The notes under the pieces are model-generated. The model was given only the letters and a program-made list of their open reading frames with translations. It was not told the DNA's origin and searched no databases. Shown here piece by piece: positions 3,893 to 43,700 of a DNA stretch of 52,658 nt (position 1 is the first letter of the stretch; every line of letters starts with the position of its first letter). This DNA comes from an uncultured Clostridia bacterium. GTDB lineage: Bacteria > Bacillota > Clostridia > UBA1381. The stretch spans positions 1 to 52,658 of the forward strand of contig CANQQS010000004.1 in NCBI GenBank assembly GCA_947626045.1, in the 5' to 3' direction. A program made the position numbers and the translations under genes.

Positions 3893-5221
<1,329 letters not shown>

Positions 5222-15052: not shown

Positions 15053-15330
15053 GACCCCCTCTCCGAGGGGGTTTTATGGGCTGTCGAGGTGAACCACACG
15101 CAAGCGTGTGGTAGGCGTGTTGCGAAGCAACAAACACCGTAGTAAGGGCGCCAGCCCCTACTACGCATGAAAAAATACGCCGTAGGGGCGACCCTTGCGG
15201 TCGCCCGAGGTAAACCCCTCAGTCACACTTCGTGTGACAGCTCCCCTAGTAGGGGAGCCATACGGAGAGCGGCGCATATCGTAAGCCTCCCCTATTAGGG
15301 GAGGTGGCGCCGGAGGCGCCAGAGGGGTTT
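15053..15330. repeat. Composite intergenic hairpin repeat, copy C (M4, interrupted M1, M2, M3)
   Basis: GACCCCCTCTCCGAGGGGGTT; GGGCTGTCGAG / 57-58 bp insertion / GGGCGCCAGCCCCTAC; GTAGGGGCGACCCTTGCGGTCGCCC; AAACCCCTC...GAGGGGTTT. Confidence 0.9.
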
Positions 15331-23590: not shown

Positions 23591-23620
23591 GTCGTTTTGC
23601 AGATACAATACGCAAAATAT

Positions 23621-23647
23621 GGCAGCAGCTCAGTCTGCTGCTTTTTT
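23621..23647 (+). terminator. Riboswitch expression-platform terminator
   Basis: GGCAGCAGCTCAGTCTGCTGCTTTTTT. Confidence 0.85.
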
Positions 23648-23674
23648 AAACTAAAAATAAAAGGGAGTTTTAGA

Positions 23675-24778
23675 ATGAAGGACAATTACAAGGTAGGTAT
23701 TATAGGCGCGACGGGTATGGTGGGACAGCGTTTCATAACGCTTCTGCACGACCACCCGTGGTACACGATAGAGGTTCTCGCGGCTTCGCCGAGAAGCGCA
23801 GGCAAATCGTATAAGGACGCTGTCGGCGCGAAGTGGGCTATGAAAGAGGAAATTCCCGCGAGCGTCGCCGATATGGTGGTAATGGACGCGACCGGCGACG
23901 TTGAGAAAATTGCGTCAATGGTGGACTTTGTGTTCTGCGCGGTCGATATGAAAAAGGACGAAATAAAGGCTTTGGAGGAGCGTTACGCGAAGGCGGAGTG
24001 CCCGGTCGTTTCAAACAACTCGGCGCACAGACACACTCCCGATGTGCCGATGATCATACCAGAGATAAATCCGCAGCATATCGAGATAATTCCGGCGCAG
24101 AGAAAGCGGCTCGGCACGAAGCGCGGATTTGTGGCGGTCAAGTCGAACTGCTCGCTGCAGTCGTACCTGCCCGCGATGGCGGTCATAAATCAAAAATACC
24201 CGATAGACCACGCGCTTGTTACGACATATCAGGCAATTTCCGGCGCGGGCAAGACGTTTGAGACGTGGCAGGAAATGGTCGATAACCTCATTCCGTATAT
24301 CGGCGGCGAGGAGATGAAGTCGGAGGTCGAGCCTAATAAGATTTTGGGCAAGATAGAGGGCGGCGAAATTGTTCCGTCAACGGAGCTGCAGATAGAGTGC
24401 CAGACGTACCGCGTACCCGTTTCGGACGGTCACACGGCGGCGATATTCTTCTCGTTCAAGGACGGCGTGAATAAGCCGTCGGTTGAGGAGATTGAGAATA
24501 TGTGGCGCGAGTTCAAGGGCGTTCCGCAGGAGTTAAATTTGCCGCACGCGCCGAAGCAGTTTATTCATGTTTACACCGAAGCCGAAAATCCCGACCAACC
24601 GCAGATTAAGACGGCGCGCGAGATCGACGGCGGCATGGCGATAAGCTGCGGCAGACTCAGAGAGTCAACGCAGTACGATTATAAAATGGTTTCAATGAGC
24701 CATAATACATTAAGAGGCGCAGCCGGCGGCGCGGTGTTGTTGGCGGAGCTGCTGACGGCGAAGGGATACATGGATTAA
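23675..24778 (+). CDS. asd: Aspartate-semialdehyde dehydrogenase
   Basis: KVGIIGATGMVGQRFITLLHDHPWY; VVSNNSAHRHTPDVPMIIPEIN; VKSNCSLQSYLPA. Confidence 0.96.
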   Translation: MKDNYKVGIIGATGMVGQRFITLLHDHPWYTIEVLAASPRSAGKSYKDAVGAKWAMKEEIPASVADMVVMDATGDVEKIASMVDFVFCAVDMKKDEIKALEERYAKAECPVVSNNSAHRHTPDVPMIIPEINPQHIEIIPAQRKRLGTKRGFVAVKSNCSLQSYLPAMAVINQKYPIDHALVTTYQAISGAGKTFETWQEMVDNLIPYIGGEEMKSEVEPNKILGKIEGGEIVPSTELQIECQTYRVPVSDGHTAAIFFSFKDGVNKPSVEEIENMWREFKGVPQELNLPHAPKQFIHVYTEAENPDQPQIKTAREIDGGMAISCGRLRESTQYDYKMVSMSHNTLRGAAGGAVLLAELLTAKGYMD

Positions 24779-24813: not shown

Positions 24814-25098
24814 GACCCCCTCTATGAGGGGCGAAAACCATACCCCGCAAGACCCCCTCTCCGAGGGGGTCAAAAGCCGGCAACGGCTTTTGGGGGGTGT
24901 CATTATTGGGGAATTAGTCATATACACCCCCCTAAACTTGCAAGCAAGTTTAGACCCCCTCGGAGAGGGGGTCATATGTAGGGGACGGCGCCCTCGACAG
25001 CCCGTTCCCGTAGGGGCGACCATTGGTCGCCCGCGGGCGGCGAATCGCCGCCCCTACGATAGACGATTTTAAAACACACGGGCGCCCCGACGTCCCGC
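24814..25098. repeat. Composite intergenic hairpin repeat array, copy D (M4 inverted pair, M1, M2 head-to-head pair)
   Basis: GACCCCCTCTCCGAGGGGGTC...GACCCCCTCGGAGAGGGGGTC; GTAGGGGACGGCGCCCTCGACAGCCC; CGTAGGGGCGACCATTGGTCGCCCGCGGGCGGCGAATCGCCGCCCCTACG. Confidence 0.9.
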
Positions 25099-25129: not shown

Positions 25130-26017
25130 ATGAAAACATTACCGTTCACAGGCTCGGGCGTTGCGATAATCACGCCGTTCGACGGTCAAAAGACCAACTA
25201 TGACGAGCTTGGCAGACTTATTGAATTTAACATTGAAAACGGCACCGACGCGGTCATAATCTGCGGCACCACCGGCGAGGCGTCAACGATGCCGGACGAG
25301 GAACATCTCGCGGCTATCGAGTACACCGTTAAAAAGGTAAACGGCCGCATACCCGTAATCGCCGGCACAGGCTCAAACGACACCGCTCACGCGACAGAGC
25401 TTACGAAAAGAGCGGAGGAACTCGGCGCGGACGCGATACTTTCCGTAACGCCGTACTACAACAAAACCTCGCAGCACGGACTTGTCGCGCACTTTACGGC
25501 TATTGCGAACGCCGTTAAAATCCCGATCATTCTCTACAACGTTCCGTCACGCACGGGCATGTCGTTCAACATAGACACGCTGAAGGAACTCGCGAAGGTT
25601 GAGAACATCGTCGCGGTCAAGGAGGCGAGCGGCAACATCAGCTACATGGCAAAGGTCGCCGCGGAGGTACCCGAGCTTTACATATACTCCGGCAACGACG
25701 ATATGATTGTCCCCGCACTGTCACTTGGCGGCAAGGGCGTCATATCGGTACTGGCAAACGTTATGCCGAAGGAGACGCACGAAATGTGCGCGAGCTTCTT
25801 TAACGGCGATGTGGAAAAGGCAAGAGATATGCAGCTTAAGCTGCTCACGCTCATAAACGATTTGTTTATCGAGGTAAACCCCGTGCCGGTAAAAACGGCT
25901 CTCAACATGATGGGCTTTAACGCGGGCAACCTGCGTATGCCGCTCGTCGAAATGACGGCGGAGCATAAGGCAAAGCTCGCGAAATCAATGGCAGAGGCGG
26001 GTATTAAGCTCGCGTAA
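25130..26017 (+). CDS. dapA: 4-hydroxy-tetrahydrodipicolinate synthase
   Basis: GVAIITPFDGQKTNYDELGRLIEFNIENGTDAVIICGTTGEASTM; ILYNVPSRTGM. Confidence 0.97.
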   Translation: MKTLPFTGSGVAIITPFDGQKTNYDELGRLIEFNIENGTDAVIICGTTGEASTMPDEEHLAAIEYTVKKVNGRIPVIAGTGSNDTAHATELTKRAEELGADAILSVTPYYNKTSQHGLVAHFTAIANAVKIPIILYNVPSRTGMSFNIDTLKELAKVENIVAVKEASGNISYMAKVAAEVPELYIYSGNDDMIVPALSLGGKGVISVLANVMPKETHEMCASFFNGDVEKARDMQLKLLTLINDLFIEVNPVPVKTALNMMGFNAGNLRMPLVEMTAEHKAKLAKSMAEAGIKLA

Positions 26018-26033
26018 AAAGGAGATACGTCCA

Positions 26034-26792
26034 ATGATAAAGATAATAATGAACGGCTGTAACGGTAAAATGGGTCAGGTTATATCGCGTCTTGCCGCCG
26101 CCGATGACGAGTGTGAAATCGTCGCGGGGTTCGACGTGAATGACGCGAAGGAAAACGCGTACCCCGTGTTTACCGACCCCAGTGAATTTACGGGCGACGC
26201 GGACGTTGTGATTGACTTTTCGCACCCCTCGGCGCTCACGGGTATTTTAACGTACTGCAAATCACGCAGACTTCCCGTTATCCTCGCGACGACGGGTTAC
26301 ACCGACGAGCAGAAGGCTGAATTTAAGAGCGCGTCGGAGGAAATTCCCGTGTTCTTTTCGGCGAACATGAGCCTCGGCATCAATCTTCTTATCGACCTCG
26401 CGAAAAAGGCGACGAAGCTTTTGGAGGGCAATTTTGATATTGAGATTGTTGAGCGTCACCACAACCAGAAAATCGACGCACCGTCCGGCACGGCTCTGGC
26501 GATTGCCGACGCGATTGACGAAACGCTGTCCTTCCCCGCCGAGTACGTCTATGACCGTCACGCGGTTCGGAGAAAGAGGAAGAAAACGGAAATCGGTCTG
26601 CACGCCGTCCGCGGCGGCACGATTGTCGGCGACCACGAGGTTATTTTCGCCGGCACGGACGAGGTTATAGAGCTTAAGCACAGCGCCCACAGCAAGGAGG
26701 TTTTCGCCGTCGGCGCGATCAAGGCGGCTAAGTTTATCGCGACCAAACCCGCCGGTATGTATAATATGAGCGATATTATAAGCGAACTGTGA
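26034..26792 (+). CDS. dapB: 4-hydroxy-tetrahydrodipicolinate reductase
   Basis: IKIIMNGCNGKMGQVISRLA; VERHHNQKIDAPSGTAL; LHAVRGGTIVGDHEVIFAG. Confidence 0.97.
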   Translation: MIKIIMNGCNGKMGQVISRLAAADDECEIVAGFDVNDAKENAYPVFTDPSEFTGDADVVIDFSHPSALTGILTYCKSRRLPVILATTGYTDEQKAEFKSASEEIPVFFSANMSLGINLLIDLAKKATKLLEGNFDIEIVERHHNQKIDAPSGTALAIADAIDETLSFPAEYVYDRHAVRRKRKKTEIGLHAVRGGTIVGDHEVIFAGTDEVIELKHSAHSKEVFAVGAIKAAKFIATKPAGMYNMSDIISEL

Positions 26793-40700: not shown

Positions 40701-43700
40701 ACACGCAGGTATTCTACATAGGCAAAGCCAACTGGGGAACGGGCGAATACTTAAAGGGCATGGTTGACGACATTTCCGTTTACTCGATTGCTCCGATTGT
40801 TGACATTGAAAATAAGAGCATAACCGATTTGCTCACGCTCCCGACCGTTGACGCAGACGCGGGTTATACCGTGGAGTGGACGAGCGATAAGCCCGAAGTT
40901 ATCAAAATTGAAAACGGCGCGGCAACGGTAAAACAGCCGGCGGCAGATACAGCGGTAAAGCTCACAGCCAAGATAACATACGGCGCAGGCATTAACATAT
41001 CGAAGGATATTACCGTAACGGTTCAGGGACAGACCGCGCTTAAAGTAACGGTTGACGACGCGGTTCAGGATAACGTAACGGTTGACAAAACCGAAGCATA
41101 TTTGGGTGATGAGATTAACGTAACCGTAACCGCGCCCGACGGCAAGGTCATAAAGGACGTTAAGGCCGGTGATATGAGTATTCTCACAAGCGGCAGACAC
41201 GGCGCGTATAAATTCACTATGCCGTCGTCGGATGTAAAGGTAACGGTTGAATTTGAGGAAAAGAAACAGACCGCGGTATTCCATTTTGAGGACGGCACGG
41301 CTGACGGAATTACATACGTGCAGGAGGGAAGCGCAGGTACAATGGAATTTGCGGACGGCAAGACCGACAAGGCTTTAAAGCTTACTCCGAGCGCTAAAAA
41401 CGGTTGGTATGGCACGCTTGACAAATTCCCGCTTTCGCTGAGCTTCTCCGTAGGCGCGTGGATAAAGCCCGCAGATATGGATAATTGGTGGCAGAGAGTA
41501 TTCGATTTCGGCACAGGCGAGGGTAACAGTATATTTGTCACCACGCGCGGTGAAACTCCCAATGCGAAATCGGAGGGTACATACCGCATGGATGCTTTCG
41601 GAGCGGGCATAGATTCGCCCACAAAACTTACCGTGAACGAATGGGCATACATAACGGTAACTTACGATGAGGCGACCGATAAGGTAACGCTGTATCTTAA
41701 CGGCGAATCGGTCGGAACGGCAACATGTACCAAAAATATGGCTGAGGTTTACGGCGGTACTGCAAATTATATAGGAAAGTCGCAGTATGCGGCGGATGCT
41801 CTTTACAGCGGTCTTATAGACGAAATGGTAATCTACAATTACGCGATTACGGCGGATGAGATAAAGGAGCTTATGGGCGTTGAGGAAACTCCCGCACCTA
41901 CAGCGACACCGAGTGCAGCACCTACCGACGCGCCGACAGCAACGCCGAGTGCGACACCAACAGACGAGCCGACAGCGACACCGAGCGTAACACCGACAGA
42001 TGCGCCGACAGCGACACCGAGCGTAACACCTACAGACGCACCAACGGCAACGCCGAGCGTAACACCGACAGATGCGCCGACAGCAACTCCGACGGCAACG
42101 ACAGCGCCGAAGCCCGACGATTCAAGCGAACACCTAAAGGGCAACATCGTTGACGGCACATATGACACGGTATTTGACGCTTCGGCTATTGAGGACTCGT
42201 TTACCGATAAAAAGGTTGATGATGAGGAAGCTCTTTCGGGCTGGACGTCAAACTGGAGCGGCGAAAACAACTCAAAAGGAATGAACGTTAATTTTATAAC
42301 CGACGGCGACAAGCAATGGTTCCAGTTCTACGGTCCCGTTATCGCGGCAAGCGGCACACCGGCGGATCTGTACACACCGAAATACGGAAGCTCGGCGAAG
42401 TGGTTCGCGATAGATTTCCTTATGAGTTCCAGTATTGAAAAGGGTACGGGAGATCCGGTATTCTGTCATGACGCGGTTCTGCTCGACAATGATAAAAAGC
42501 CTATTTTCGGCTACGCGTACACAACTCACGACGATGGCTTCTTCCCCGGCTCGGGCGAACGCTCGTACGACGCTGACGGCACATACACCCAAATGCAAAG
42601 CGGTGATAATTTCGCAAGCTTCCTCGGTCAGGACAACGGCACGGCGGGAGTATTGTACGAAAACGGAAAATCCGTAATGCGTATAATCGTTGACAACGGA
42701 GTGAAATATGACGGTCAGGACGCGTATGCCGTAACATGCGCGATAGATAAGGATGGTACGGGTAATTTTGAAGTTATCAGCACGCGCTATTATAAGGGCA
42801 GCGCGAACGGCTTCGGCGGAATAAGAGAAGCCACGATTAATACCAAGGAATGGTATAACAACGCCCGCTACGGAAACATGAAGGTTTACGTGGAAAAGGA
42901 AGCGCCGACTCCCACAGCATCACCGAGCGTATCTCCTACAACTTCACCTAGTGCAACACCGACAGACGCACCGACAACAACGCCGAGTGCAGCACCTACA
43001 GACGCACCGACAACAATGCCGAGCGTAACGCCTACAGACGCGCCGACAGCGACGCCGAGCGTAACGCCGACCGACGCGCCGACGACAGCGCCGAGTGTAA
43101 CGCCTACAGACGCGCCGACAACTACGCCAAGTGTAACGCCTACAGACGAGCCGACAGCATCACCGAGCGTGTCACCGTCACAAAAACCGACACTGACGTT
43201 TGATGTTACGGGAGCGGTTAAAAACAGTGACGGCACAGCGGCGGCAAACCGCAAGCTTACATTGAAACCGCTCGGATTGGAAACGACTACGGACGAGAAC
43301 GGCAATTACGCGTTTGACGGAGTTGAGGCGGGCAGCTACAATATAGTTGTTGAAACGGGCGACGGAAAAACGGTCACAACGCTTATTGACGTAACGGACG
43401 GTAATGTCAGCGCGGACATAACGCTTCCCGCCGCTAATGTCGCAAGCGCGGTTGAAACAACCGACAGCGACACCGGTTCCGATATAAAGGTAGAGGACAT
43501 TGTTGTGGGCGGTCTTGACGAGCTTGCCGATGCGGTTGCCGATGCGCTTCCCGACGCGGATAAGACAAAGGATATTGAGGTCAAAATGACCGTCGAGAGT
43601 AAGAAGGAGGACGCTTCCGACACCGAGCAGCAGGCAATAAAGCAGGAGAGCAATAACAAAGCCGAAAAGCTTGATTACATTGATATAGACATTATTAAAA

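Follow-up and report, generated by a model that had tools for sequence, protein, structure and literature searches.

The region between asd and dapA on contig 4 of a 2.6-Mb Clostridia MAG contains a 123-bp inverted pair of a repeat designated M4 (positions 24851–24973 of the 52,658-nucleotide stretch analyzed here, referred to as the window). We are highly confident that M4 is a mobile, REP-dimer-like repeat with two unlike arms, in which whole stems are exchanged. The further reading, in which M4 is a REP/BIME-like heterodimer that encodes no protein, its class of hairpin elements bears DUF559 genes, and the nuclease starts the exchange, has in our estimation only slightly better than even chances of being correct.

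The element consists, in order, of an outer hairpin, an inner hairpin, a core, a 23-bp center, a core, an inner hairpin, and an outer hairpin. A preliminary description had recognized two units, the left on the minus strand and the right on the plus strand, and both were confirmed in place. In the left arm (minus strand), the outer hairpin, read outward as GACCCCCTC-GGA-GAGGGGGTC (unit sequence GACCCCCTCGGAGAGGGGGTC), occupies 24851–24871, the inner hairpin of stem class A, AAAAGCCG-TTGC-CGGCTTTT, occupies 24872–24891, and the core, ACACCCCCC, occupies 24892–24900. The center (24901–24923) differs among most copies, but resembles that of two A/B pairs, L084 and L147, whose sites are unrelated. 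In the right arm (plus strand), the same core (24924–24932), which pairs with the left core over 9 bp, is followed by the inner hairpin of stem class B, TAAACTTG-CAAG-CAAGTTTA (24933–24952), and by an outer hairpin with the same unit sequence as that on the left (24953–24973). Just outside the outer hairpins are the terminal motifs CGCAA on the left (24846–24850, plus strand; consensus CGYAW) and ATATG on the right (24974–24978, plus strand; a degenerate WTRCG), and the outward consensus of 146 arm flanks was W-T-R-C(0.74)-G(0.66). Upstream of the pair lies asd (aspartate-semialdehyde dehydrogenase; 23597–24778, plus strand), for which the mechanical ORF starts with TTG at 23597 and the real start is probably further in; downstream lie dapA (4-hydroxy-tetrahydrodipicolinate synthase; 25130–26017, plus strand) and then dapB, which starts at 26034. 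The names of asd and dapA were inferred from their translations. The right end is adjoined by GTAG-type hairpin repeats (GTAGGGGACGGCGCC..., GTAGGGGCGACC...GGTCGCCC; 24978–25058), a solitary outer hairpin of the M4 family lies at 15053–15073, and a 36-nt direct repeat in two arrays was observed at 41825–43246.

The two 8-bp inner stems of the pair differ at four of their eight base pairs and, as previously described, every change is compensated. The pair is not a product of chance: the sequence GACCCCCTC occurs six times in the window against 0.14 expected, and GACCCCCTCNNNGAGGGGGTC has 52 sites in the genome against none for the reversed control. The 133-nt stretch is predicted to fold far more stably than expected (z = -11.9 as DNA and -12.3 as RNA), and the predicted structure for either is a four-way junction consisting of a basal stem, a left hairpin, a core stem with the center as its loop, and a right hairpin. 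Three features had not been described: the 23-bp center, the truncated and older class-C arm at 24814–24836, which consists of an outer hairpin and CGAAA and occupies the place of an intact C arm in the congener G009, and the possible pairing of the two outer hairpins with each other. This outer–outer basal pairing was considered as a required stem and was rejected: the loops mismatch, and they are equal less often than expected by chance (9 of 71 pairs against 17 expected, P = 0.008).

To collect copies regardless of their stems, 61 genomes were searched for ACACCCCCC, 10–34 bases, and GACCCCCTC. This stem-blind search gave 123 matches in four of the 61 genomes, all of one genus (40 in the genome of the window, 23 in G005, 36 in G009, and 24 in G011); the remaining 12 congeners and 45 less closely related genomes gave none. 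Three of the four M4-bearing Clostridia MAGs (G005, G009, and G011) are from rabbit gut. The loci parsed from these four MAGs comprised at least 73 distinct pairs, or 146 arms, which were mostly intergenic and mostly had a linker of 17–30 bp. All 146 inner stems fell into four discrete classes common to the four species: class C (GAAATC-GATTTC; 48 arms), class A (AAAAG(C/T)C..; 44 arms), class B ((T/A)AAACTTG; 31 arms), and class D ((A/T)AAACTCA(C/T); 23 arms). The stem bases of class C did not vary in any of its 48 copies. The contigs of other genomes gave many chance matches, and true M4 was confined to the uncultured Clostridia MAGs and a single MAG that carries the label Ruminiclostridium; none of 29 pattern matches in viral contigs was a true M4 arm, and the Rfam search returned no family matching M4. 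In the left arms of L145, L150, and L090, the outer hairpin had a compensated change (GACCTCCTC...GAGGAGGTC), in all three cases in a class-C arm beside an altered core, GGGTGGTG.

How the stems change was analyzed at orthologous sites in different species, where flank identity was roughly 85–96% over up to 1.3 kb. L131 of G011 (C-D) and L157 of G009 (C-A) have in common the C arm, the whole center, the core, and the outer loop ATA. They differ in the second inner stem, where one has AAAA-CTCACAAGTGAG-TTTT and the other AAAA-GCCGTTACCGGC-TTTT. At a second site, a rare TGC loop of the left outer hairpin is kept in all three species, while the pair is A-B in the genome of the window (L080), A-D in G011 (L122), and C-D in G009 (L154). 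The right stem is B or D in L076 (C-B) and L156 (C-D), and B or C in duplicated segments of the genome of the window (A-B in L079; A-C in L079 and L092). The asd-dapA slot itself holds C-B in G009, and A-B beside the truncated C arm in the window. The inner stems of the arms, at times together with the center, are therefore seen to be replaced in place, and the outer hairpins stay. At these orthologues, both sides of the stem were altered at once at most inner positions, and among the 123 stem-blind matches there was no half-and-half stem with one class on its 5' side and another on its 3' side; the classes therefore move as whole stems. At L151:1195–1340 and L143:1495–1640, chimeric arms were found in which an M4 arm is joined at CCCCCTC to a Y arm of a sister family or is cut off by a GTAG-type hairpin, and arms thus fuse between families.

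Judged from these sequence comparisons, the large differences between stems fit whole-stem exchange between copies better than snap-back rewriting. The exchange is probably recombination between the copies, and would proceed by recombination or gene conversion. The changes of a single compensated base pair (A6 C-G to T-A, D9 C-G to T-A, and A-T and T-A at position 1) are a separate and smaller process than the switching of classes. Compensated cells numbered 14 against 8 uncompensated cells in the inner stems, and 4 against 24 in the outer hairpins.

Evidence that M4 is mobile as a pair comes from copies with the same arm classes and near-identical centers at non-homologous sites (the window, L084, and L147; L088 and L089; L129 with L135, and L140). 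No repeat was found between asd and dapA in five congeners, other hairpin cassettes occupy this position in several more, and the same intergenic slots are occupied by several hairpin families. No clean empty site that would give an exact insertion point was found in G008, because its slots hold other hairpin cassettes. No clear target-site duplication was found at the M4 pairs, and a slight excess of equal flanking W bases was unconvincing.

Two other explanations of these hairpins were weighed against exchange between mobile copies. The preliminary description was right that the flanks are conserved, that the stems vary and stay complementary, and that they change with the flanks fixed; it had attributed this to snap-back repair synthesis, in which the hairpin templates its own rewriting. 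Template switching has been reported to create and maintain hairpins (PMC8794818), an intermediate stem, AAAAGTCG...CGGCTTTT, exists (L156:9581), and the compensated single-pair changes are common relative to uncompensated ones in the inner stems. However, in snap-back synthesis one side of a stem serves as the template for the other, so that a single step cannot convert CTCACAAGTGAG into GCCGTTACCGGC, and the simultaneous change of both sides in the orthologues and the absence of half-and-half stems also speak against it. A hotspot of rewriting with unconstrained stems that keep only their complementarity does not describe M4: it had been proposed that one common stem sequence would count against such rewriting, and no single common stem was found, but there are only four classes. 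Snap-back synthesis as the source of the classes is therefore largely refuted and we regard it as very unlikely to generate the stem diversity; free rewriting does not stand, and hairpin-templated correction that polishes single pairs is plausible. The hairpins might instead be kept for an RNA function of the host, such as mRNA stabilization, attenuation, or two-way termination, as the very stable fold and the mostly intergenic positions, including that inside the asd-dapA gene pair, would suggest. This is improbable, if slightly less so than snap-back synthesis: the copies lie beside convergent (23), tandem (29), and divergent (15) genes, no T-run follows the stems, no Rfam family applies, and in the congeners described above the asd-dapA gene pair either lacks an insert or holds different repeats.

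The two arms of M4 pairs were never of the same class. Same-class arms occurred in none of the 73 pairs, against approximately 19.6 expected from the class frequencies and a minimum of 6 in 20,000 permutations; the test treats the copies as independent, and since they are related, the nominal probability of approximately 1e-10 is too strong. A clustering of the centers into lineages, at a threshold that was too lax, merged 61 of the 73 pairs. All six unlike combinations were seen (A/C, 21; A/B, 15; B/C, 14; C/D, 13; A/D, 8; and B/D, 2), and arms therefore mix freely. The longest perfect inverted run between two arms never exceeded 21 bp. Same-class versions of the element are predicted to form one straight hairpin (-109 to -116 kcal/mol, against -87 kcal/mol). 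With its unlike inner stems, the element folds as separate hairpins or a four-way junction rather than one long perfect palindrome. Same-class pairs may thus be lost because they form long cruciforms, and we consider it an even question whether the rule reflects such palindrome instability rather than a structural demand of the enzyme. In the sister family, whose outer hairpin reads CCTCCC or GCTCCC, Y arms (CTCAGTC-stem-GACAGC) were paired with Z arms (e.g., CTCCGTC-stem-GCCACC) in all 22 pairs found. Like arms were found flanking DUF559 genes at L382 and L433 (28-bp and 45-bp perfect arms), approximately 370 bp apart, which fits a loss of closely spaced like arms only.

The preliminary description had also proposed to look for a factor acting in trans, and this proved a good lead. 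In one long-centered M4 pair (L085/L369; G000:C66:6615–6929), an ORF of 124 codons lies between a C arm and an A arm, beginning just inside the left arm and ending within the right arm, and encodes a DUF559 protein (PF04480, E = 3.6e-30; solved relative, 3hrl). This is the only case of DUF559 inside M4 arms proper, and many DUF559 genes lie between hairpin arms of the sister families, usually unlike arms. PF04480 occurs in 9 of the 16 genomes of the genus, among them the four M4 genomes, with one or two copies in each. It is absent from seven congeners, at least one of which (G015) nonetheless has a solitary, related hairpin arm. Upstream of tpiA, four DUF559 genes lack an enclosing pair of arms. 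Within the taxonomic family, 13 of 24 testable DUF559 genes were flanked on either side, at no more than 150 bp, by exact inverted repeats of ≥ 12 bp; the corresponding rate at 4,000 random positions was 1.7%. Outside the family, inverted repeats of ≥ 11 bp were found at 10 of 22 DUF559 loci, in Deinococcus, cyanobacteria, alphaproteobacteria, and viral contigs, against 1% of controls, which here were shuffles and not real intergenic positions. DUF559 genes lie within 45-bp arms between paaD and paaZ in Deinococcus psychrotolerans, within 22-bp arms between sufB and sufC in Sphingomonas, and, in G008 and G011, with arms between genes that resemble purM and purN (the latter names inferred from sequence). 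Such positions within conserved gene pairs (L375, L376, L432, and L433; purM-purN by sequence, sufB-sufC and paaD-paaZ by annotation) are those that selfish inserts would take. A putative active-site motif, VDFYC...ELDGSQH, is conserved in these genes. A link between DUF559 and hairpins was not apparent in the titles and abstracts of a limited set of papers that mention DUF559.

We propose that the M4 pair belongs, as a MITE-like member without a coding region, to a family of mobile elements built of paired hairpins, in which two arms, each made up of a core, an inner hairpin, and an outer hairpin, face each other. In one M4 element and in many elements of the sister families, which are its coding relatives, the gene of a DUF559 endonuclease (Vsr-fold, PD-(D/E)XK) takes the place of the short center. 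The nuclease would nick or cut the hairpins and thereby start copying and stem exchange, and would also act in trans on the non-coding copies. That DUF559 is the enzyme of M4, with a role in its mobility, is a possibility that we place somewhat below even. To our knowledge, a Vsr-like nuclease alone has no transposition chemistry, which is a point against the model.

Two alternatives bear on the pairing rule and on the enzyme. The absence of same-class pairs might be an artifact of assembling short reads, since every genome is a MAG and perfect palindromes sequence and assemble poorly. Against this, the arms, at approximately 50 bp, fall below the k-mer lengths commonly used in assembly, identical arms assemble in spite of their many recurrences, few arms lie at contig ends, and the nine pairs with identical outer loops did assemble; this is the least probable of the explanations considered. 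The main rival to DUF559 is a resident RAYT (REP-associated tyrosine transposase, HUH Y1) that would move REPINs or BIMEs by acting on single-stranded hairpins, DUF559 being a passenger that lands near hairpins. A RAYT-like gene, P0001, occurs in 8 of the 16 congeners, among them every M4 genome, with PF01797 above its cut-off and TnpAREP (4er8) as the best solved relative, and paired inverted hairpins are the classic substrate of RAYTs (PMC3116915, PMC8266576). P0001 matched NF047646 with 71 bits (E = 9.6e-20), under the NCBIfam cut-off of 80; the tag of M4 is CGYAW in 146 arms, with no GTAG next to the hairpin; and the RAYT genes in the loci examined had GTAG-type hairpins near or inside them and no M4 arms in the roughly 1.5 kb of flanking sequence. 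Four RAYT-positive congeners have no M4 pair. M4 is present in four of eight RAYT-positive and four of nine DUF559-positive genomes and in none of the rest, so co-occurrence does not decide between the two enzymes because both fit the pattern about equally; the position of the gene between the arms favors DUF559. RAYT as the sole driver is ranked second, and is unlikely. Two RAYT genes contain in-frame hairpin repeats (L095:1462–1977, G000:C49:12830–13342; and L303:1459–2034 in G005), and the peptides encoded (RGDPCGRP; GANRVRPS and GRTRFAPT) differ between the two species.

Compared with known systems, M4 has the two inverted palindromic units, short linker, and many intergenic copies of REP dimers, but neither a conserved GTAG/CGTC tetranucleotide at the hairpin end nor a cognate RAYT gene flanked by its repeats. 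Like the BIMEs of Escherichia coli (y-z1/y-z2 REP pairs; PMC8266576), it is an intergenic, mosaic inverted pair of two hairpin types with a linker; unlike them, it has two hairpins per arm, no GTAG tag that we could find, four interchangeable stem classes, stem switches at orthologous sites, and coding relatives with DUF559. It resembles the REPINs associated with RAYT in Pseudomonas fluorescens in being a non-autonomous inverted doublet of approximately 100 bp that moves as a unit and has a variable spacer; in REPINs the two units are mostly identical in type and mixed doublets are rare (PMC3116915), whereas the two arms of M4 always differ in type, and a RAYT link is here only a candidate. 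Some GTAG/CGTC REP families occur as heterodimers only, with "no obvious explanation" (PMC3733652), and M4 is like them in this pairing but carries neither tag. The Z arms of the sister families often read CCGTC before the hairpin, and in families with Z arms DUF559 is often enclosed, which makes it a candidate for the missing enzyme. VsrA of Caulobacter, a DUF559 protein studied as a putative mismatch-repair endonuclease (PMC12907096), belongs with Vsr to the same nuclease family, but the DUF559 gene here is enclosed by inverted hairpin arms and often has genes of a single operon on both sides. MITEs are similarly short and non-coding with inverted ends and have longer coding relatives with the same ends, as L085/L369 is for M4; M4 differs in that no target-site duplication was found, its ends are hairpins, and the coded protein is a single-domain nuclease rather than a known transposase.

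Taken together, our results suggest that M4 and its relatives form a little-known class of very small mobile DNA. More tentatively, DUF559 endonucleases may be the dedicated enzymes of hairpin-ended mobile elements, coding and non-coding, throughout bacteria; copying from hairpin to hairpin, started by the nuclease, would allow these elements to spread and to exchange stems, DUF559 would be the missing enzyme of several orphan REP-like families, and the different-stem rule would keep short copies from becoming unstable palindromes. Two stated puzzles become testable, namely why many REP families pair only unlike units and by which enzyme hairpin repeats are moved when they lack a transposase. 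Exchange between very short repeats is clearly recorded in the whole-stem switches at orthologous sites. Should DUF559 be the enzyme in question, this would give a role to a common gene whose function is unknown, and a mechanism to many intergenic hairpin repeats of bacteria.
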